Origin: an uncultured Pseudomonadota bacterium
GTDB lineage: Bacteria; Pseudomonadota; Gammaproteobacteria; Steroidobacterales; Steroidobacteraceae
Assembly (NCBI GenBank): GCA_902826575.1
Contig: CADEFJ010000016.1
Location: 4,471 to 44,115, forward strand
DNA length: 39,645 nucleotides
Direction of reading: 5' to 3'
Of this stretch, positions 1-22,793 are shown piece after piece. A program made the translations under genes and the position numbers. The notes under the pieces are model-generated. The model was not told where the DNA came from. It searched no databases and saw only the letters and a program-made list of their open reading frames with translations. How positions within the stretch are numbered: the stretch's first letter is position 1; each line of letters opens with the position of its first letter.

Positions 1-1632
1 TATGCGCAGACGCCGATGGAAACGGTGTTCGGCATCAACATGGTGGCGCTGGTCGACGGCCAGCCGCGCCTGTTGTCGCTCAAGGAAATGCTCGAGGCGT
101 TCCTGCGCCATCGGCGCGAGATCGTCACGCGGCGCACGATCCACGACCTGAGCAAGGCGCGCGAACGCGCCCATATCCTCGAGGGCCTCACGGTGTCGCT
201 CGCGAACATCGACGAGGTGATCGCGACGATCAAGGCGGCGAGTTCGCCGGCCGAGGCGCGCGTGGCGCTGACCGCGCGAGCCTGGCCGCCGGGTGGCGTG
301 CCGGCACTGCTCGCGCGCGCCGGCGAAGTCGCTACCCGGCCCGAAGGTGCGGGGGCGGACACCGGGCTCGTCGACGGCGGCTATCGCCTCTCCGATGCGC
401 AGGCGCAGGCCATCCTCGACATGCGGCTCAACCGCCTGACCGCGCTCGAGCAGGACAAGATCGTCGCCGAGTACCAGAGTCTGCTCGACTTGCTCCGTGA
501 TCTCAGCGACATCCTCGCGCGGCCCGAGCGGCTTGCGGACGTGATCCGCAACGAGCTGATCGAGATCCGCGAACAGTACGGTGATGCGCGCCGCACCGAA
601 ATCAACCGCGACCACCTCGATCTCACCACCGAGGACCTGATCGAGCCGCAGGATGTCGTCGTCACGCTGTCGCACGCCGGTTACGCCAAGTCGCAGCCGG
701 TGACCGAATACCAGACGCAACGGCGTGGCGGCCGCGGCAAGTCCGCTACTGCGGTCAAGGACGAGGACTTCATCGAGAAGCTGTTCGTCGCACACACGCA
801 CGATACGCTGCTGTGCTTCTCCAATCGCGGCCAGGTCTACTGGCTCAAGGTGTACGAGCTGCCGCAGGCCGGGCGCAATGCGCGCGGCAAGCCCATGGTC
901 AACCTGCTGCCGCTGCGCGAAGGCGAGAAGATCAACGCCGTGCTGCCGATCAAGCAGTTCGACGACACGCACTTCGTGTTCATGGCCACGAGCCAGGGCA
1001 CCGTGAAGAAGACCCCGCTGTCGGCATTCTCGCGCCCGCGCGCCAGCGGCATCATCGCGGTGGACCTGCGCGACGCCGATCGTCTGGTGGGCGTCGACCT
1101 GACCGACGGCGCGCGCGAGATCATGCTGTTCACGAGTGGCGGCAAGGCGATACGCTTCGACGAGAACGAAGTGCGCGCCATGGGCCGCGACTCGGCCGGC
1201 GTGCGCGGCGTGAAGCTCGAGACGGGCCAGGAACTCATCGCACTGATCGTCGTGCGCGAGGGCCACGTGCTGACTGCGTCGGAGAATGGTTACGGCAAGC
1301 TCACGCCGCTCGATGATTTCCCGGTGCATGGGCGCGGCGGGCAGGGCGTGATAGCGCTGCAGACCACCGAGAGGAATGGTGCCACCGTGGCAGCCCTGCA
1401 GGTCGAAGTGTCGCAGGAGCTGATGCTGATCAGCTCGAACGGCACGCTGGTGCGCACGCCGGTCGCGGACGTGTCGGTGGTCGGCCGCAACACGCAGGGC
1501 GTACGGCTGATCCGGCTCGATGACGGCGAGCGCCTGGTGGGCGTCGAGCGTATCGAGAGCCTGGACGACGATGGCCAATCCGCGGACATGGACGACAGCA
1601 CGGAAAGTTCTGACGGCCCGGCGCCGCCTTGA
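1..1632 (+). CDS. gyrA: DNA gyrase subunit A, C-terminal part (5' truncated by window)
   Basis: This is the C-terminal part of the type II topoisomerase subunit that breaks and rejoins DNA during negative supercoiling. The frame is open from base 1, so the gene begins upstream of the window. The first residues (YAQTPMETVFGINMVAL) match the end of the breakage-reunion domain. A coiled-coil tower follows (about residues 30-190), then the beta-pinwheel DNA-wrapping domain. The GyrA box QRRGGRG at about residues 240-246 separates GyrA from ParC. The insertion before YRLSDAQAQAIL is typical of gammaproteobacterial GyrA, and the tail is acidic (DDDGQSADMDD). The stop is TGA at 1630-1632. The quinolone-resistance region lies outside the window. 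serC follows about 50 bases downstream, as in Pseudomonas-type gene order. Confidence 0.97.
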   Translation, partial: YAQTPMETVFGINMVALVDGQPRLLSLKEMLEAFLRHRREIVTRRTIHDLSKARERAHILEGLTVSLANIDEVIATIKAASSPAEARVALTARAWPPGGVPALLARAGEVATRPEGAGADTGLVDGGYRLSDAQAQAILDMRLNRLTALEQDKIVAEYQSLLDLLRDLSDILARPERLADVIRNELIEIREQYGDARRTEINRDHLDLTTEDLIEPQDVVVTLSHAGYAKSQPVTEYQTQRRGGRGKSATAVKDEDFIEKLFVAHTHDTLLCFSNRGQVYWLKVYELPQAGRNARGKPMVNLLPLREGEKINAVLPIKQFDDTHFVFMATSQGTVKKTPLSAFSRPRASGIIAVDLRDADRLVGVDLTDGAREIMLFTSGGKAIRFDENEVRAMGRDSAGVRGVKLETGQELIALIVVREGHVLTASENGYGKLTPLDDFPVHGRGGQGVIALQTTERNGATVAALQVEVSQELMLISSNGTLVRTPVADVSVVGRNTQGVRLIRLDDGERLVGVERIESLDDDGQSADMDDSTESSDGPAPP

Positions 1633-11926: not shown

Positions 11927-11955
11927 GGGAACGCCGGACCACCCAGATGCATCGA
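11927..11955 (+). promoter_or_regulatory. Candidate ECF promoter box 1 (sigma-factor autoregulation)
   Basis: GGGAACG (11927-11933) is followed after exactly 15 bases by GCATCGA (11949-11955). The same two elements at the same spacing occur at 12638 and 22510. GGAAC is the usual -35 core of ECF sigma factors, so this looks like the autoregulatory promoter of the sigma gene at 11964. A start site 6-8 bases after the second element would fall almost on the ATG, giving a leaderless or nearly leaderless message. Confidence 0.6.
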
Positions 11956-11963
11956 ATGGGAGC

Positions 11964-12647
11964 ATGAACACCTCCGCCCTTGAAGGCCTGCACACGGGCC
12001 TGTCCGATGCCGAGATCGCACGCCGGATTGGCGCCGGCGATGAACTTGCCTTGCAGTTCATGATGCGGCGTTACAACCAGACGCTGCACCGCACGGCGCG
12101 CAGCATCCTCAAGGACGACGCGGAGGCGGAGGATGCCGTGCAGGAGGCATATTTCCTCGCCTATCGCTCGATCGGCAGCTATCGCGGCGACGCGCGGTTG
12201 TCCACCTGGCTCGTGCGCATCGTGGTCAACGAGTCGATCGTGCGTCTGCGCAAGCGCAAGCGCCGGGCCGAAGTGATCGACCTGGGTGGTGAACTGGCGG
12301 CGGGAGGTGGAGAACCGATGGAGCTTCCTGATCTCGCAGCCGCACGCGGCGAGGCCCGACGCCTGCTCGAGGCGAAGATCGATGCGCTCCCCGATGTGTT
12401 TCGCACGGTGTTCGTGCTCCGGGGCATCGAGGAATTCACGGTGGAGGAAGCCGCGCAGTCGCTCGGCATACCCGAGGCCACCGTACGCACGCGGTACTTC
12501 CGCGCCAAGGGTCTGCTGCGCGAATCGATCGCGCGTGAGATCGATGGCGTGTTCGAAGACGCTTTCGCGTTCGATGGGGTGCGATGCGACCGCATCGTTG
12601 CGCACGTGCTCGCGAGAGTGCGCGCGGAGCGCACGACGGGAACGTAG
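11964..12647 (+). CDS. ECF-family RNA polymerase sigma factor with C-terminal extension
   Basis: The 227-residue product has sigma region 2 (about 31-100: LALQFMMRRYNQTLHRTARSI, DDAEAEDAVQEAY, STWLVRIVVNE) and region 4 (about 133-190: LPDVFRTVFVLRGIEEFTVE, SLGIPEATVRTRYFRAK). There is no region 1 or 3, as in group 4 (ECF) sigma factors. After region 4, a tail of about 35 residues ends FDGVRCDRIVAHVLARV, with C208 and H214. No anti-sigma gene is adjacent on either side. Box 1 lies directly upstream, and box 2 overlaps its stop codon and faces the cytochrome gene, so self-activation and control of the next operon are likely. The ATG at 11964 follows GGGAG too closely for an ordinary ribosome binding site. 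Confidence 0.92.
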   Translation: MNTSALEGLHTGLSDAEIARRIGAGDELALQFMMRRYNQTLHRTARSILKDDAEAEDAVQEAYFLAYRSIGSYRGDARLSTWLVRIVVNESIVRLRKRKRRAEVIDLGGELAAGGGEPMELPDLAAARGEARRLLEAKIDALPDVFRTVFVLRGIEEFTVEEAAQSLGIPEATVRTRYFRAKGLLRESIAREIDGVFEDAFAFDGVRCDRIVAHVLARVRAERTTGT

Positions 12648-12666
12648 CGCGGTCGGCGTGCATCCA
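12638..12666 (+). promoter_or_regulatory. Candidate ECF promoter box 2 (cytochrome-folE2-oxidoreductase-patatin operon)
   Basis: GGGAACG (12638-12644), a 15-base spacer, then GCATCCA (12660-12666). The first element overlaps the sigma-factor stop codon. It is the same bipartite box as at 11927 and 22510, placed so that transcription would start about 14 bases before the ATG at 12687. Here and at 22510 the similarity extends beyond the two elements (spacer GTAGCG.GGTCG.CGT), so those two copies share recent descent. Confidence 0.6.
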
Positions 12667-12689
12667 TTGCGCGGTCTTTGCAATGGATG
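12661..12689. repeat. 9-bp inverted repeat over the downstream promoter element and start codon
   Basis: CATCCATTG (12661-12669) and its exact complement CAATGGATG (12681-12689) are 11 bases apart. The related site at 22533-22562 keeps 8 of 9 pairs with a 12-base gap. The left arm lies in the proposed -10 element and the right arm contains the ATG at 12687. A protein bound here as a dimer could block the promoter. Because the first arm is upstream of the expected RNA start, a DNA operator is more likely than an RNA hairpin. Confidence 0.45.
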
Positions 12690-13919
12690 AACGCCATGTC
12701 GAAACACTCCCCGGGCAAGTTGCTCGCGCTGGCCGCGGCGCTCGCGACATCGCTCCTCGCCGCCTGCGGCGATGACTCCACTGCCGGGCGCAGCGATGTG
12801 CCGGATGCTGCGCTCGTCGCGCAAGGCAAGGAGATTTTCCGCAACGACACCTTCGGCGATGAGTCGCAGTGGACAGATGCCCTGCGCATGCACGAGGTCA
12901 TCAGCGCGGCGGTCGATCCCGTGACAGCGCTGTCCGTGGGGCTCAAGGTCGACTCCGAGGCTCTGCCGGCCGAAGTCGTGCAGGGCATCCAGGACGGCAG
13001 TATCAGCCTCACGAGCCCGGCGACGACCGTTGCGTTGCTGAAGCTGAACGCGGTGGTCGGAGTCAGGGGCACTGTCGAGAACATCAGTGGCAAGGACACG
13101 CTGACGCGGGTCGGCATCACCTGTGCGCTGTGCCACTCGACGGTCGATGATTCGTTTGCGCCGGGCATCGGCAAGCGCCTCGACGGGTGGCCCAATCGCA
13201 GCCTGAATCCCGGCGCGATCATCGCCCTGTCGCCGGCGCTGACGGCCGATCAGAAGGCAGTCTACAACTCCTGGGGTCCGGGCATGTACGACCCGCGCTT
13301 CAACTTCGACGGTGTGAACGGGCCGCAGGTGATCTCGCCGGCCTACGGGCTCGAGGGAATTCATCGCATCACTGCGACGGGCGATGGCGAGGACATCGCA
13401 TACTGGAACCGCTATGTCGGTGTGACGCAGATGGGCGGCCACGGCAGCTTCATCGAGCCGCGCACGGGAGTGTCGGTCGTCAACGGCTCCGACGACCTGA
13501 TCAGCAGCAAGCTGCCGGCGCTGCAAGCCTACCAGTTGACGCTCGAGGCGCCGCCACCACCGCCAGGCAGCTTCGATGCCGCGGCCGCGATGCGCGGCAA
13601 GGCGCTGTTCGACGGAGTCGCGCGCTGCGCCAGCTGTCACAGCGGGCCGGAGTTCACCGACGCGAACCTGCGCCTGCACTCGCCGGATGAGGTGGCGAGC
13701 GAGCCGGAGCCGAACGGCGTGCCGAGTTACGCGTCGCGCAGCGCCACGAAGATGTATCGCACCGCGCCGCTGAAAGGCGTGTGGCAGCATCCGCCGTACT
13801 TCCACAACGGCTCGGCCGCCACGCTCGACGAGGTCGTGCAGGCGTACAACACCCGGCATGCCCTCGGGCTGGGTGCGGACGAGATGGCCGATCTCGTCCA
13901 GTACCTGAAGTCGCTGTAG
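12687..13919 (+). CDS. Di-haem cytochrome c peroxidase-like lipoprotein
   Basis: The 410-residue product has a lipoprotein signal (LLALAAALATSLLAAC, lipid-anchor Cys27) and two haem c sites: C146-x-x-C-H150 and C314-x-x-C-H318. The C-terminal YRTAPLKGVWQHPPYFHNGS resembles the MauG/CcpA di-haem family, in which this segment lies over the second haem. Likely roles are periplasmic peroxide reduction or oxidation of a small substrate. The exact activity cannot be read from sequence. Start choice: ATG 12687 and ATG 12696 are both possible. The related sequence at 22560 keeps both ATG codons in the same spacing, which favours 12687. It is the first gene of a compact run; folE2 begins 9 bases later. 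Confidence 0.88.
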   Translation: MNAMSKHSPGKLLALAAALATSLLAACGDDSTAGRSDVPDAALVAQGKEIFRNDTFGDESQWTDALRMHEVISAAVDPVTALSVGLKVDSEALPAEVVQGIQDGSISLTSPATTVALLKLNAVVGVRGTVENISGKDTLTRVGITCALCHSTVDDSFAPGIGKRLDGWPNRSLNPGAIIALSPALTADQKAVYNSWGPGMYDPRFNFDGVNGPQVISPAYGLEGIHRITATGDGEDIAYWNRYVGVTQMGGHGSFIEPRTGVSVVNGSDDLISSKLPALQAYQLTLEAPPPPPGSFDAAAAMRGKALFDGVARCASCHSGPEFTDANLRLHSPDEVASEPEPNGVPSYASRSATKMYRTAPLKGVWQHPPYFHNGSAATLDEVVQAYNTRHALGLGADEMADLVQYLKSL

Positions 13920-13928
13920 GCCCTGTCC

Positions 13929-14702
13929 GTGTTGCCCGACATCCAGTCGCAGGCGGACGAGCGCGAACTGCCGATCGACGCAGTCGGTGTGAAGGGTGTG
14001 CGCCACCCGGTGACGATTCGTTCAGGCGGCCGGTCGGCGGCGACGGTGGCGGACTTCGCGATGTCGGTGGCGCTCCCGGCGCGCCACAAGGGCACGCACA
14101 TGTCGCGCTTCATCGAGCTGCTCGAGTCGCACACCGGCGCGCTCGACTTCGTCACGTTCGAATCCCTGACCCGGGCCATGCTGTGGCGGCTCGACGCCGC
14201 CAGCGGCGCGATCGACATGTGTTTTACCTGGTTCCTTGAAAAGTCGGCACCGGTGTCGGCGGTGCGCAGCCGCCTCGATCTGCCGGTGCGCTGGCAGGGC
14301 AGTGTCGACACGCAGGGGCGGTATCGGTTCCGGATGTCGGTGACCGTTCCGGTGACCAGTCTGTGCCCGTGCTCGAAGGAGATCTCGGCCTACGGCGCCC
14401 ACAACCAGCGTTCACACATCCGTATCGAGGCCGGGTTCATGCACGAGATGGCGATCGACGCCCTCGCCGCGCTCGCCGAGCGCAATGCGTCGTCCGAGGT
14501 ATATGGCCTCCTCAAGCGGCCCGACGAGAAGTACGTCACCGAGCGCGCCTACGAGAACCCGAAGTTCGCCGAGGACCTCGTACGGGACGTCGCACTCGAC
14601 CTGCGACGCCAGACTGGCGTCAGCGAATGCGTCGTCGAGGCCGAGAATTTCGAATCCATCCACAACCACTCCGCCTACGCCCGAATCGGGCAGGCGGGCT
14701 AG
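13929..14702 (+). CDS. folE2: GTP cyclohydrolase I type 2 (FolE2, type IB)
   Basis: This enzyme opens GTP to dihydroneopterin triphosphate, the first step of folate synthesis. FolE2 can work with metals other than zinc and typically replaces zinc-dependent FolE under zinc limitation or oxidative stress. The 257-residue product shows GVKGVRHPV near the N-terminus and the active-site segment SLCPCSKEISAYGAHNQRS (cysteines 146 and 148, then the His), plus a C-terminal NFESIHNHSAYA. The start is a GTG at 13929, 9 bases after the cytochrome gene, with no in-frame ATG near the expected N-terminus. I see no Zur-like site directly upstream. Its place in the run under box 2 suggests sigma-factor control instead. 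Confidence 0.93.
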   Translation: MLPDIQSQADERELPIDAVGVKGVRHPVTIRSGGRSAATVADFAMSVALPARHKGTHMSRFIELLESHTGALDFVTFESLTRAMLWRLDAASGAIDMCFTWFLEKSAPVSAVRSRLDLPVRWQGSVDTQGRYRFRMSVTVPVTSLCPCSKEISAYGAHNQRSHIRIEAGFMHEMAIDALAALAERNASSEVYGLLKRPDEKYVTERAYENPKFAEDLVRDVALDLRRQTGVSECVVEAENFESIHNHSAYARIGQAG

Positions 14703-14718
14703 CCGCGGGAGCTCATCG

Positions 14719-15438
14719 ATGCCCCAATACTCGACCACAATGTCCCGGCAGGAGGGCGTGGCGCGCGACACGATCGCGTTCCACATCGAGAAGCCGGCGG
14801 CCTTCCGTCACCAGCCGGGGCAGGCCATCGATGTGGTTCTGTCGCGCGCGGGTGCGGGCGACGCGCAAGAGCTTCGCCATGCCTTTTCGATTGTCAGCGC
14901 GCCAGGCGAGCCGCAGATCGTGTTTGCGACACGGATGCGGGCCAGCGAGTTCAAGCGGGCACTCGGCGCGCTTCGCCCCGGGTCGCGACTCACGATCTCG
15001 GGGCCGTTCGGCTCGATGACGCTGCATCCGGACGGGCAGCGGCCCGCCGCTTTGATCGCCGGCGGCATCGGCATCACTCCGTTCATGAGCATGCTGCGCT
15101 GGGCCCGCAGTGAACGCACGGCGCGCAGCTTCCTGCTCCTCTACTCGAATCGAAGCCCGCAAGACAGCGCGTTCCTCGATGAGCTTCGGCAACTCGAGCA
15201 CTCGCTGCCGGCGTTTCGGCTCATGGCAACGATGACCGATATCGGGTCGTCGACCGCCTGGGACGGCCCGACCGGGATGATCGACGCCGCCATGCTGCGC
15301 AAGGCCGTCGGCTCGCGGCAGTCCCCCATCTACTATGTCGCGGGACCGCCCTCCATGGTCACAGCGATGCGCGGGGTGCTGGAGAGCCTCGGTGTTGTGA
15401 GTGACGATGTCCGCAGCGAAGAGTTCTACGGCTACTAG
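14719..15438 (+). CDS. FAD/NAD(P)H-dependent ferredoxin reductase-type oxidoreductase
   Basis: The 239-residue product is a minimal ferredoxin-NADP reductase module: a flavin-binding barrel (about 1-100) with R53-H-A-F-S57 in place of the usual RxYS, and a nucleotide-binding domain with GGIGITPFMSML starting at 115 and VAGPPSM at about 207-213. It ends in EEFYGY, a typical C-terminus of this family. It lacks its own ferredoxin domain, so it must pass electrons to a separate partner, possibly a redox protein elsewhere in the genome. The start ATG has a clear ribosome binding site (GGGAG, 8 bases away). It lies 16 bases after folE2 and 4 bases before the patatin start I chose. Confidence 0.88.
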   Translation: MPQYSTTMSRQEGVARDTIAFHIEKPAAFRHQPGQAIDVVLSRAGAGDAQELRHAFSIVSAPGEPQIVFATRMRASEFKRALGALRPGSRLTISGPFGSMTLHPDGQRPAALIAGGIGITPFMSMLRWARSERTARSFLLLYSNRSPQDSAFLDELRQLEHSLPAFRLMATMTDIGSSTAWDGPTGMIDAAMLRKAVGSRQSPIYYVAGPPSMVTAMRGVLESLGVVSDDVRSEEFYGY

Positions 15439-15442
15439 CGCG

Positions 15443-16426
15443 ATGGGCGGGGTCGGCAAGACAGCGTTGGTGCTCGCCGGCGGAGGCAGCTACGGCGCCG
15501 TGCAGGTCGGCATGCTCCGTGCCCTGTGCGAGAACGGTGTGCGGCCGGACTTCGTGACGGGGTCCTCGGTGGGCGCAATCAACGGTGCGTTCTATGCCGG
15601 TGCACCGGACCTCGCGGGCATCGCCAGACTGGAGGCGGTGTGGCGCACGCTCAGGCGGCGTGACGTGTTTCCGATAAGGCTGGCACAATTGCTGCGCGCT
15701 CTCGGCAGTGCCGATCATCTCTTTGACCCACGCGGCCTGCGCCGGCTGCTCACCGCCCATCTCCCGTTCAGGTTGCTGGAACAAAGCGTCCTCCCGATGC
15801 ACGCCGTGGCCACGGATTTGCTGACCGGGGCTGCCGTGTGCCTGTCTGCGGGTCCAGTGGTTGAGGCAGTGCTCGCGAGTTGTGCCATTCCCGGGATCTA
15901 TCCGCCGGTGCGCTACGGCGATCGGCAGCTCATCGACGGGGCCGTAGCCTGCAACACACCCATTCGTACCGCCGTCGGACTCGGCGCAACGCGGCTGATC
16001 GTGCTGCCAACGGCATTCGCCTGCCCGCATGCCGCTCCGCCACGCGGGGTGTTTGGCACCGCATTGCACGCCATGGACCTGATCGTCACGCAGCAGCTCG
16101 TTCAGGACACGGCGCTCTACGCGACGCATGCGGAGGTCATCATGGTGCCACCGCATTGTCCGCTGGCGGCCCCACGTTACGACTTCTCGCATGTCGAGGA
16201 GCTGATCGACGAGGCGGCGCGCAGCACGCGGCGCTGGCTCGAGTCGGGTGGGCTCCGCGATCGGGAGCGGCCGGTCATGGCGCAGGCACGGTCCGGCGCC
16301 AATGTGGCGACACCTGCGCGGCGGCTATTGCCGGCACGCGAAATGGGCTGCGGCGCAGGGCTGCCGTCGTGCCCCGATCGCGGGTGCCTTGCCGGCGACC
16401 AGAGAAACTCATGGACAAAGCCTTGA
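15443..16426 (+). CDS. Patatin-like phospholipase
   Basis: This is a predicted serine lipid acyl hydrolase. In the 327-residue product, the oxyanion loop is GGGSYGA (13-19), the nucleophile elbow is GSSVG with Ser42, and the catalytic Asp is D165 in LIDGAVACN. All parts of the Ser-Asp dyad are present. No signal peptide is seen, so the protein is probably cytoplasmic or peripheral at the membrane. The C-terminal 60 residues after STRRWLESGG are rich in Arg, Pro, Gly and Cys and look less conserved. Start choice: ATG 15443 lies just before the conserved fold. In-frame GTG 15401 and ATG 15407 would overlap the reductase gene. A diverged copy of its 3' end stands at 22585-22793. Confidence 0.9.
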   Translation: MGGVGKTALVLAGGGSYGAVQVGMLRALCENGVRPDFVTGSSVGAINGAFYAGAPDLAGIARLEAVWRTLRRRDVFPIRLAQLLRALGSADHLFDPRGLRRLLTAHLPFRLLEQSVLPMHAVATDLLTGAAVCLSAGPVVEAVLASCAIPGIYPPVRYGDRQLIDGAVACNTPIRTAVGLGATRLIVLPTAFACPHAAPPRGVFGTALHAMDLIVTQQLVQDTALYATHAEVIMVPPHCPLAAPRYDFSHVEELIDEAARSTRRWLESGGLRDRERPVMAQARSGANVATPARRLLPAREMGCGAGLPSCPDRGCLAGDQRNSWTKP

Positions 16427-16877: not shown

Positions 16878-18149
16878 ATGACACACCTTTCACTTGCCGT
16901 TGCGCAGCGTTACGCGCGTTCGGTGTCGTGCTGGTTCGCGGCCGCCCTGTTCGCGATTGCGGCGGGCAGCGTATCCGCGGGCGAGCTGACGCTCGCCGAG
17001 GCAGTGCGTCGCGCCGTCGAGATCGCGCCGCAGCTCGAAGCGAGTCTTGCCACCGTCGAGGCGGCCTCGCAGGAATTGCGCCGCGCCGGCAGCCTGCCCG
17101 ATCCGATGCTTGCGATCGGCTTCGACAGCCTGCCGATTTCGGGCGCGGACGCATTCGACTTCGACGCGGATGCCATGACAGAGAAGACCATCGGGCTGCG
17201 CCAGGAGTTGCCGGGGCGGGCCAAGCGCGCCGCGCAACGCAGGGTCGCCGAACGTTCCGTCGAACTTGCGCAGGTCGACGTTGACGTTGTGCGCCGCGAT
17301 GTCGCCCGGGCGGCCGCGCGTGCCTGGGTCGATGTCTGGTCAGCCCAGCGCGAAATCGAAACCCTGGGTTCGCTGCGCGCACAGGCGCAGCTTGCGGCTC
17401 GCCTGGCGCGTGCGCGCATTGCGGGCGGCGGTTCGGCGCTCGATGCGCTGGCGGCGCAGGCGGGTGTTCTCGAAGTCGACAGTGAAGGCGCCGCCGCCGA
17501 GGGCGCCGCAGGCGAGGCCATGGCCGAACTGCGCCGCTGGATTGGCGACGACGCCGCCACGATCACGGAAACGGCGCCCGACTTCGACCGCGCTCCCCGC
17601 CCGGAGGGCGAGACGCTCGCAGCGCTCGACCGGCTGCCCACGCTGCGTTCGGCCGAGGCGAGAGTGGCGTCGGCTGCCGCCGCGGTCGATGCAGCGCGCG
17701 CCGAGCGGCGTCCCGACTGGGATCTCACGGCGAGCTATGGGCAGCGCAGCGGCTACAGCGACATGCTGATGGTGGAGGTGGGCGTGAGCCTGCCGCTCTT
17801 TGTGCGCACTCGCCAGGCGCCGGGAATCGCAGCGCGCACGGCGGAGCAGCGCGTGGCACTCGCGGAACAGCAAAGTCAACGCCTCGAGGTGACCGCGCGT
17901 ATTCGAGCGCTCTACGCGAGGTGGGAGGGCCTCAGGCGCCAGGTGTCCGTGCACGATCAGGTCCTGCGTCTGGCGCGCGATCGCAGCGCCGCGGCCCTGG
18001 CGTCCTACCGCGCGGGCGGCGAACTGCAGCCCTGGCTCGACGCGCGCCGTGACGAGACGACCGCACATCGCACACATGCACAGCATCTCGCCGGCCTCGG
18101 CCGTGCCTGGGTCGATCTGGCCTATCTGTTCGGGGAGTCGACCCCATGA
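16878..18149 (+). CDS. cusC: Outer-membrane efflux channel of the TolC family (CusC/CzcC type)
   Basis: This is the outer-membrane exit duct of a tripartite metal pump. The 423-residue product has an N-terminal signal peptide (about 1-35, ending SVSAG) and two OEP repeats, with the long helices at about 38-220 and 235-415, rich in Ala, Glu and Arg as usual. The motif SLPDPMLAIGF and the GLRQELPG segment match the CzcC/CusC branch rather than drug-efflux TolC. The ribosome binding site is excellent (GGAGG before the ATG). The stop TGA overlaps the ATG of cusB (ATGA), so the two are translationally coupled. Confidence 0.88.
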   Translation: MTHLSLAVAQRYARSVSCWFAAALFAIAAGSVSAGELTLAEAVRRAVEIAPQLEASLATVEAASQELRRAGSLPDPMLAIGFDSLPISGADAFDFDADAMTEKTIGLRQELPGRAKRAAQRRVAERSVELAQVDVDVVRRDVARAAARAWVDVWSAQREIETLGSLRAQAQLAARLARARIAGGGSALDALAAQAGVLEVDSEGAAAEGAAGEAMAELRRWIGDDAATITETAPDFDRAPRPEGETLAALDRLPTLRSAEARVASAAAAVDAARAERRPDWDLTASYGQRSGYSDMLMVEVGVSLPLFVRTRQAPGIAARTAEQRVALAEQQSQRLEVTARIRALYARWEGLRRQVSVHDQVLRLARDRSAAALASYRAGGELQPWLDARRDETTAHRTHAQHLAGLGRAWVDLAYLFGESTP

Positions 18150-19353
18150 CGATCAACAAACGCGGTCCCGTGATCGTGGCCGTGGCTGCACTCGTGGCAC
18201 TCGCCGGCGTCGTTGGCTGGTGGAGCGCCACACGCGACGGTCATTCCACCGGCCCGGCACCCGCAGGCGAACGCAAGATCCTCTACTGGTACGACCCGAT
18301 GGTGCCGGACCAGCATTTCAGCCAGCCCGGCAAATCGCCGTTCATGGACATGCAGCTGCAGCCGAAATACGCGGATGAGGACACGAAGGCGGGTGTCGAG
18401 GTGTCCCCCGTCACCCAGCACAGCCTGGGAGTCCGCACGGTTGCGGTCGAGAAGGGTCGGCTCGGCAGCGAAATCGTCGTGTCAGGCACGATCGCCTGGG
18501 ACCTGCGACTCGAGCGCGTCGTCAGCGCGCGCACCGAAATCATCGTCGATCGCCTGTACGTCAAGGCACCGTTCACGAAGGTCCAGCGAGGCGAGAGGCT
18601 TGCGAGCGTGATCGCTCCTGCGTGGAGCAGCGCGCTCGCGGAGGCACAGGCCATCGCGCAATCCGCCGAGGTCGGTACGCGCGAGCTCTCGGCAGCCGCG
18701 CAGGCACGTTTGCGCGCGCTCGGCGTGCCGGACGGCACTCAGCCTGGCCGCGACGGTCGGATCGTGCTGACCGCGCCCGAACAGGGCGTAGTCAGCGAGA
18801 TCGGTGTGCGGGAGGGTGAAGTCGCTCCCGTCGGCTTGACGCTGTTTCGGGTCAACGGCACCCGCACGGTCTGGTTGCAGGCGGCCATACCCCAGGCGGA
18901 CGCGGCGGGCATCGCGGCGGGCGCTCGCGCCATCGCCGAAGTGGGCGGTATCGCGAATCCTGTCGTGGGACGGGTCGAATCGGTGTTGCCGGCGCTCGAT
19001 CCGGCGAGCCGCACCCAGCAGGCACGCATCGTGCTCGCCAATCCCGACGGCGTGCTCGCGGCGGGACAACAGGCGCGCATCGTCCTGCGTTCGGACGCTG
19101 GCGCGGAAAGCCTGTTGGTGCCGAGTGACGCCGTGATCGGCAGCGGCGAGCGGGCGCATGTGATCGTGCGTCACGGCGATGCGCATTTCATGCCGATGGC
19201 CGTGCGCACCGGCCGCAGCAGCGGTGGGCGCACGGAAGTCCTCTCGGGCCTGAAGGAGGGCGAACAGGTGGTCGTGTCCGGGCAGTTCCTGCTCGACTCG
19301 GAAGCGAGCCTCTCGGGGGCGCTCGAGCGTCTCGGCGGGAATGGGTCGCAGCC

Positions 19354-19357
<4 letters not shown>
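18146..19357 (+). CDS. cusB: Periplasmic adaptor (membrane fusion protein) of the Cu/Ag efflux pump
   Basis: This adaptor links the RND pump to the outer-membrane channel. The 403-residue product has one N-terminal membrane anchor (about 8-28). A small heavy-metal-binding domain follows (about 45-75) with YWYDPM (47-52) and FMDM (66-69); these methionines are the type that bind Cu(I) or Ag(I) in CusB. Then come the lipoyl/barrel-sandwich halves, a short helical hairpin and the beta-barrel and membrane-proximal domains. The stop overlaps the cusA ATG by 4 bases. The preserved methionines and the Cus-type partner make copper or silver the most likely substrate. Confidence 0.9.
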
Positions 19358-22488
<3,131 letters not shown>

Positions 22489-22509
22489 CACGGATTTCGG
22501 GTCTTGTGC

Positions 22510-22538
22510 GGGAACGTAGCGAGGTCGACGTACATCCA
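22510..22538 (+). promoter_or_regulatory. Candidate ECF promoter box 3, in front of the patatin remnant
   Basis: GGGAACG (22510-22516), 15 bases, then ACATCCA (22532-22538). This third copy of the bipartite box has 24 of the 29 bases of box 2, and the similarity continues through a start region with the same double ATG spacing (22560 and 22569). No intact gene follows, only the patatin remnant, so this is probably a relic or an orphan promoter firing toward the minus-strand gene end at 22821. Confidence 0.5.
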
Positions 22539-22584
22539 TTGGGCAGTGTGTGCCAATCGATGAGTGCAATGTTGAAATTCCCTC

Positions 22585-22793
22585 TCCACGGCGCTATACG
22601 CGAACCACATGGAAGTCATCATGGAGCCGCCGCTCTGTCCACTGGAGGCCCCGCGTTACGACTTCTCGCATGTCGACGAGCTGATCGACGAGGCGGCGCG
22701 CAGCACCAGGCGCTGGCTCGCAGGGGGTGGGCTCCACGCTCGGGAGACACCTGCACGGGCACAGGCAAGGTCCATTGCCACCGCGGAGATACT
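22585..22793 (+). pseudogene. Remnant of a patatin-like phospholipase gene (3' part only)
   Basis: Translated in its frame, this stretch reads like the last fifth of the patatin protein encoded at 15443-16426: EVIMEPPLCPLEAPRYDF and DELIDEAARSTRRWL against EVIMVPPHCPLAAPRYDF and EELIDEAARSTRRWL. The match begins at about 22585 (source about 16106) and fades after about 22793. The oxyanion loop, the nucleophile elbow and the catalytic Asp are all missing, so it cannot be an enzyme. The frame stays open into the antisense of the next gene, but only this part has homology. The preceding bases resemble the start of the cytochrome gene at 12687, so an internal deletion in a duplicated block is likely. 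The intergenic space from 22489 to 22820 holds only this and box 3. Confidence 0.8.

Follow-up and report, generated by a model that had tools for sequence, protein, structure and literature searches.

The window considered here is a stretch of 39,645 nucleotides from an uncultured Pseudomonadota bacterium of the family Steroidobacteraceae (contig CADEFJ010000016.1), in which the gene of an extracytoplasmic function (ECF) sigma factor of 227 amino acids (11964-12647) is followed by four closely spaced genes on the same (+) strand. These encode a di-haem c-type lipoprotein with two CXXCH motifs (12696-13919, the probable start being 12696, with a further in-frame ATG at 12687), the GTP cyclohydrolase IB FolE2 (13929-14702, GTG start), an NAD(P)-binding oxidoreductase (14719-15438) and a patatin-like phospholipase (15443-16426). 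The gene order and the gaps of 9, 16 and 4 bases reported in a preliminary description were confirmed on the sequence. The same holds true for two copies of a box with the same spacing, which that description had placed ahead of the sigma gene and across its stop codon, and which are exact matches at 11927-11955 and 12638-12666. Altogether, the locus probably represents a one-component system, in which a sigma factor of group ECF29 would serve a small regulon.

The pattern GGGAACG-N15-RCATCSA has three exact matches in the window, at 11927, 12638 and 22510, the last of which had been missed before; 100 dinucleotide shuffles of the window yielded zero exact matches. The draft genome (3.1 Mb, 89% complete, 225 contigs) contains only these three window sites and no match to the reversed pattern. 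The looser GGGAACG-N16-CATC gave two further matches in the genome, both within long open reading frames, and a large regulon was rejected on this basis as well as on the counts from 15 other genomes (41 pattern matches vs 41 for the reversed control) and from six genomes of the same genus (29 vs 34 for the control). Read as an ECF29-type promoter, the box of the sigma gene, GGGAACGCCGGACCACCCAGATGCATCGA (11927-11955, + strand), would comprise the -35 element GGGAAC(G) and the -10 element GCATCGAA, while that of the operon, GGGAACGTAGCGCGGTCGGCGTGCATCCA (12638-12666, + strand), which overlaps the sigma stop codon, pairs the same GGGAAC with GCATCCAT.

These elements correspond to a promoter already assigned to a sigma factor group. 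According to the available part of PMC6180224, RpoE8 of S. meliloti is counted among the ECF29 sigmas, the promoter of this group across species consists of a -35 GGGAAC and a -10 GCATCCAA, one mapped rpoE8 start has this promoter, and a second match at the rpoE8 locus lies 1 nt past the rpoE8 stop codon. Compared to this consensus, each window promoter shows one mismatch in the -10 element and a spacer of 16 vs 15 in rpoE8. The window sigma scores 277.6 bits on the NF008888/PRK11922 model (cut-off 204) and RpoE8 323.1 bits on NF008888, from which we infer that this model corresponds to ECF29. Over window residues 33-219 the two proteins are 43% identical, and RpoE8 carries DAFPFAGKRCERL near its C-terminus (F-x-F-x-G-x-R-C), where the window sigma has the motif F-x-F-x-G-x-R-C-D. 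A comparison with PHROGs returned a general sigma family.

The motif belongs to a C-terminal extension of the window sigma (approximately residues 197-227), which follows the last helix of region 4 and for which a helix is predicted at 205-225. In the available part of a review (PMC8999054), ECF29 is listed among the groups with terminal extensions, the mechanism of which is described as still to be studied. Cys208, the single cysteine in the entire window sigma, is invariant across 36 aligned sigma factors, and a C-terminal cysteine is found in 40 of the 42 sigma-like rows, the two rows lacking it (L061 and L052) looking like other sigmas. The alignment comprises 36 of these 42 rows: L061 and L052 were left out as outside the family by eye (L061 has no family match), and L067, L071, L041 and L057 due to long tails or as near copies. 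A search of the PDB with the structure model of the sigma returned general ECF folds and nothing informative on the extension. The immediate neighbours, to which the examination of the surroundings was confined, are a nucleotidyl transferase gene (PF00483) upstream and the cytochrome operon downstream, and no anti-sigma gene is among them.

Beyond this genome, GGAACG-N16-CATC was found within 110 nt upstream of 19 of the 23 distinct sigma genes with at least 50% identity, the window included (24 rows, since L197 is L108), and in 0 of 168 control windows. In L034, from the same genus, it lies at the same position before the sigma gene. Eighteen sigma genes were fetched from elsewhere in cytochrome-bearing genomes, two of which (L197 and L199) turned out to be located beside a cytochrome. 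For the sigma genes remote from the cytochrome, GGAAC-N17-CATC precedes 11 of 12 with at least 50% identity (all but L198), and the box precedes none of five with 44% identity or less. Targets carry it as well: folE2 is headed by the box in L047 and L064, and a patatin with 70% identity, encoded on a different contig in the sister genome G005, has GGGAACG-N16-CATC 8 bases before its ATG. In the 75 of 80 cytochrome loci having 350 nt of upstream sequence, a loose A-type (GGAAC) box was counted 15 times and the B type described below five times, compared to two and one on the reverse strand. Across many genera, the spacers diverged while the box stays in place. Since the box recurs before relatives of the sigma, cytochrome, folE2 and patatin genes, the earlier view of a lone ECF sigma driving both itself and the operon is very probably correct.

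The cytochrome loci are the best 80 of 153 places, with 57-89% identity in the best segment and many short contigs. They stem mostly from beta- and gammaproteobacteria, and also from records titled Gemmatimonadetes, Myxococcota and Bacteroidota. A sigma match (E <= 1e-15) is present in 39 of the 80 loci. Near the cytochrome, folE2 was found in nine loci (L034, L040, L045, L047, L064, L066, L069, L072 and L076) and the reductase in five (L034, L040, L045, L046 in part, and L108), not counting weaker reductase matches at least 5 kb away in L048, L066 and L109. The window order sigma-cytochrome-folE2-reductase recurs in L034; other arrangements are sigma-folE2-reductase-cytochrome (L040), sigma-folE2-cytochrome (L072), cytochrome-folE2-reductase (L045) and cytochrome-reductase-sigma (L108). 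Cytochrome, sigma, folE2 and reductase thus recur in varying order, but not the patatin, for which no match at 1e-5 was obtained in the 80 other loci (L034-L113) and which was accordingly discarded as a member of a conserved cluster. Between sigma and cytochrome, the loci of Acidovorax, Simplicispira and Comamonas encode a small cytochrome c and, in addition, a ferritin-like protein (PF13668).

The pairing of sigma and cytochrome was also observed at the level of genomes. Twenty cytochrome-bearing genomes were picked, ten having a box close to the cytochrome or folE2 gene and ten lacking one, and 18 of the 19 that were searched contain exactly one sigma (E <= 1e-30). In a sample of 98 relatives, with the cytochrome called at E <= 1e-60 and the sigma at the family cut-off, eight have the cytochrome and ten the sigma: six have both, two the cytochrome only (G010 and G036), four the sigma only and 86 neither. 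The sigma is thus present in 6 of 8 cytochrome holders and in 4 of 90 cytochrome-free relatives (Fisher p = 5e-6, phylogeny not corrected). G036 shows a partial sigma match below the cut-off (model positions 94-228). Within the genus, all three genomes with the cytochrome have a sigma over the cut-off, and none of the four without it. The four sigma-only relatives, in which the sigma exceeds the NF008888 cut-off and the di-haem cytochrome is missing, are G009, G015, G017 and G032 (loci L218, L215, L214 and L212). As a separate observation, cytochrome relatives with about 42% identity are encoded on Sinorhizobium and Rhizobium megaplasmids (plasmid records H4-H12).

Among more distant ECF29 sigmas a TGTCACC -35 element (B type) is frequent, while the -10 element is unchanged. 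In the 34 sigma rows below 50% identity, TGT[CA]AC together with a -10 of [CG][AG]TC[CT]A was determined for 15 (Cupriavidus, Acidovorax, Ramlibacter and others) and GGAACC with CATC for seven (Rhodanobacter, Lysobacter); 12 match neither pattern. Five Cupriavidus loci (L077, L080, L084, L085 and L087) show the B type ahead of both the sigma and the adjoining cytochrome, and the sixth, sigma-free locus (L074) has no B-type box before its cytochrome. A tree of 61 sigmas requires two changes of promoter type among the 51 typed rows, vs 16 in shuffles. This tree is of a quick kind with long branches, the B pattern was looser than in the upstream tally, the five rows L204-L208 were assigned to type A manually, according to the head of their operon, and the near copies L057 and L197 were dropped. 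In Rhodanobacter (L041, L049, L054, L067 and L071) the sigma, with a promoter of the GGAACC...GCATCCAA kind, lies near the gene of an ABC-transporter ATPase (PF00005 in L067), the translation of which resembles CcmA from a cytochrome c maturation cluster. In L178 (G006) a loose box at 1501-1527 (- strand) lies 3 nt before the start of a gene labelled ccmB-like from its translation, where the ABC-ATPase gene ahead of it has not yet ended, and could be a further target or possibly due to chance.

The lipoprotein heading the operon had been described as a periplasmic haem peroxidase. A weak similarity to bacterial di-haem peroxidases and MauG-like enzymes is indeed present, and the sequence match to known di-haem enzymes is confined to the C-terminal third. 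However, Tyr384, invariant in 49 homologue rows, aligns within about one column with the Met of the peroxidases 1nml, 3o5c, 1eb7 and 2c1u, which we take to be the axial ligand of their second haem. An ordinary di-haem peroxidase was rejected on account of this apparent loss of the Met. In MauG and MbnH, the corresponding ligand position is occupied by a Tyr. The scores on the curated models of these two families are far below the cut-offs (TIGR03791, 41.1 vs 443.85 bits; TIGR04039, 29 vs 362.85 bits). The AlphaFold model of the protein has a predicted local distance difference test (pLDDT) value of 87, with template modelling (TM) scores, normalised to the query, of 0.36 to BccP and 0.25 to MbnH.

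FolE2 scores 267.5 bits on NF010200 (cut-off 215). Since folE (PF01227) is located elsewhere in the genome (G000:C131), as it is in six other same-genus genomes searched, FolE2 is a second GTP cyclohydrolase. FolE is zinc-dependent, while FolE2 is flexible in its metal. The oxidoreductase (PF00175) resembles the BenC/MmoC reductases; it has no ferredoxin domain match and does not reach the cut-offs of any of the NCBIfam models listed. The last gene of the operon encodes a patatin-like protein (PF01734), and for the earlier suggestion that oxidised lipids are dealt with, nothing beyond this patatin itself was found in favour. Metal or redox stress is a possible purpose.

The operon is followed by a CusA/CzcA-type efflux operon (16878-22488) of an outer membrane factor, a CusB-like adaptor and a CusA/CzcA pump over the cut-off. 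Just past the cusA-like gene lies the third box (22510-22538, + strand). The surrounding stretch 22509-22577 aligns with the operon promoter 12637-12704 (69 columns, 81%), and nine bases beyond it begins a fragment of a patatin C-terminus (22587-22773, + strand), matching 16108-16294 over 187 bases with 82% identity and corresponding to patatin residues 222-300. By its sequence, 22509-22773 appears to be a second operon copy that has decayed and lost its middle, with the third box as the promoter of this decayed copy. The efflux operon is bracketed by the four-gene operon and the decayed remnant.

Based on these data, the following course of events is proposed. Using GGGAACG-N16-CATC promoters, the sigma factor would transcribe the cytochrome-folE2-reductase-patatin operon as well as its own gene. 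Judged by the sequences, this promoter and regulon step is very likely, and control of the operon by the sigma is well supported. The activity of the sigma may be gated by its own C-terminal extension with the invariant cysteine, a step to which we assign somewhat less than an even chance. Upon activation, the envelope would receive a di-haem enzyme, seemingly Tyr-ligated like MauG and MbnH, whose role would be the peroxide-driven oxidation of a protein or copper partner. The cytosol would receive a GTP cyclohydrolase that is flexible in its metal, together with a reductase, and both could sustain the supply of folate and the redox balance upon failure of the zinc-dependent FolE. The likeliest signal would be copper or oxidant stress, a guess held with less confidence than the gating. 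Copper would fit the efflux neighbour, the cupredoxin partners of related sigmas and the similarity to MbnH, an oxidant would fit the haem enzyme, and both would fit the spare zinc-independent GTP cyclohydrolase.

Several observations weigh against this proposal. Four of the sigma genes with at least 50% identity are without the strict box: L108 and L198 have neither kind of box, L096 has the other -35 type and L192 has GGAACA. Furthermore, 60 of the 75 cytochrome upstream regions are without an A-type box and 55 without either type, some of which may belong to inner operon genes. G010 has a box-headed cytochrome and sigma-family matches all below the cut-off, being the exception among the 19 genomes searched. 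As the first box ends 8 nt ahead of the sigma ATG, the sigma mRNA would be nearly leaderless. The fold match of the modelled cytochrome is weak, with a best TM score of 0.36, and the evidence for copper lies only in the neighbourhood, the cus-like operon following here and not in L034 and L035. Finally, in the available part of PMC6180224, overexpression of RpoE8 left the box-bearing neighbour SMb20593 uninduced, so that possession of the box need not mean activation.

The same experiment bears on an explanation in which the sigma is constitutively competent, its level being set by another regulator, so that autoregulation serves as amplification and the extension is structural. Transcriptional control is indeed named as one class for lone ECF sigmas (PMC8999054, in the part available), and EcfQ of B. 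japonicum is thought to be controlled in this way (PMC3420878, likewise in part). Nevertheless, the upstream regions of close relatives share, by eye, only the ECF29 box, and no target was detected although RpoE8 was overexpressed 126-fold (PMC6180224, available part), a result that fits a gated sigma. We regard constitutive competence as unlikely. That the box pair is due to chance or to a recent duplication without promoter function could be read from the third box, which belongs to a decayed duplicate. This is highly improbable, since the box is kept in place in many genera with diverged spacers and, the differences in -10 and spacer given above aside, is identical with a mapped ECF29 promoter (PMC6180224, available part).

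A narrower explanation is an envelope copper response, comprising an MbnH-like enzyme, a possibly co-transcribed CusA/CzcA-type efflux system and, in related loci, cupredoxin targets. The structure 6e1c ("MauG-like protein associated with microbial copper homeostasis") is among both the sequence and the structure matches of the cytochrome, the efflux genes lie directly downstream, and no terminator-like site was found between the patatin and the next open reading frame. In addition, Caballeronia and Paraburkholderia plasmids contain DUF4142-cupredoxin-sigma operons headed by GGAACG-N16-CATC, and the corresponding genes of R. leguminosarum are headed by GGAACC with GCATC. On the other hand, MauG (3sle) and peroxidases were matched too, and in L034 and L035, the loci from the same genus, the cluster has no cus-like genes next to it. 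Nor was a copper-binding motif found, no search aimed at one having been made. A copper response is hence conceivable, and we would sooner bet against it than on it. The one-component ECF29 sigma with its small regulon remains the preferred reading. It could be extended to the whole group in a more speculative form: ECF29 sigmas would be single-protein sensors, in which the sigma is freed once the invariant C-terminal cysteine has bound a metal or reacted with an oxidant, with a periplasmic redox output and a -35 element switched between GGGAACG and TGTCACC at a constant -10. This extension appears rather doubtful. If true, the family-wide output would be a cupredoxin or a Tyr-ligated di-haem oxidase together with a metal-independent folate bypass.

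The relatives in other genomes indicate a real pairing of sigma and targets and supply candidate ECF29 target genes. A compact, conserved and box-marked regulon and one invariant cysteine make the targets and the signal of ECF29 testable, one regulon connects a MauG-like enzyme with a second GTP cyclohydrolase, and the group illustrates how, in nature, the -35 element of a sigma family changes with the -10 retained. No published description of this regulon was found by searches in an open-access library, the ECF classification papers (Staron 2009, Casas-Pastor 2021) lying outside the literature consulted, and the text of Rhodius 2013 contains no mention of "ECF29". The initial statement that no such system is described therefore holds for the regulon but not for sigma and box, since ECF29 and RpoE8 are described, although uncharacterised.

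Among known lone sigmas, EcfQ (ECF33) of B. japonicum was considered as the closest and rejected, as its promoter motifs are others and contain no GGAAC (PMC3420878, available part). The CorE-like sigmas (ECF238, former ECF44) also have no anti-sigma and a cysteine-bearing C-terminal extension (PMC8999054, available part); while CorE contains a Cys-rich domain as well as a CXC motif in the linker, the window sigma has one cysteine in total, and the likeness is a comparison of function only. For the cytochrome, the di-haem peroxidases CcpA and BccP are the best PDB matches in sequence and fold, with their Met replaced by the invariant Tyr. MauG and MbnH are alike in the C-terminal haem domain and apparently in the Tyr at the aligned ligand position, although their family cut-offs are not reached and the neighbourhood in the window, where alone such partners were looked for, shows neither a MADH nor an MbnP. 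A further ECF29-like sigma is encoded on a Methylocystis plasmid (L206, 4037-4729), where the box precedes a gene without Pfam match upstream of the sigma, with an NnrS family gene on the downstream side and an encapsulin shell gene at a greater distance upstream. The closest known system is the locus of RpoE8 (SMb20592, with SMb20593-amcY), for which no anti-sigma is known and the regulation of which is called a mystery in the available part of PMC6180224, the single experimental work on an ECF29 sigma that was found. The window spacer is one base longer, and DUF4142 and cupredoxin genes follow the second box there, compared to the di-haem enzyme, folE2, reductase and patatin here. Both loci nonetheless have in common the match to NF008888, the -35 and -10 elements, the lack of a known anti-sigma, the F-x-F-x-G-x-R-C motif and the layout of box, sigma gene, second box at the sigma stop codon and target genes.

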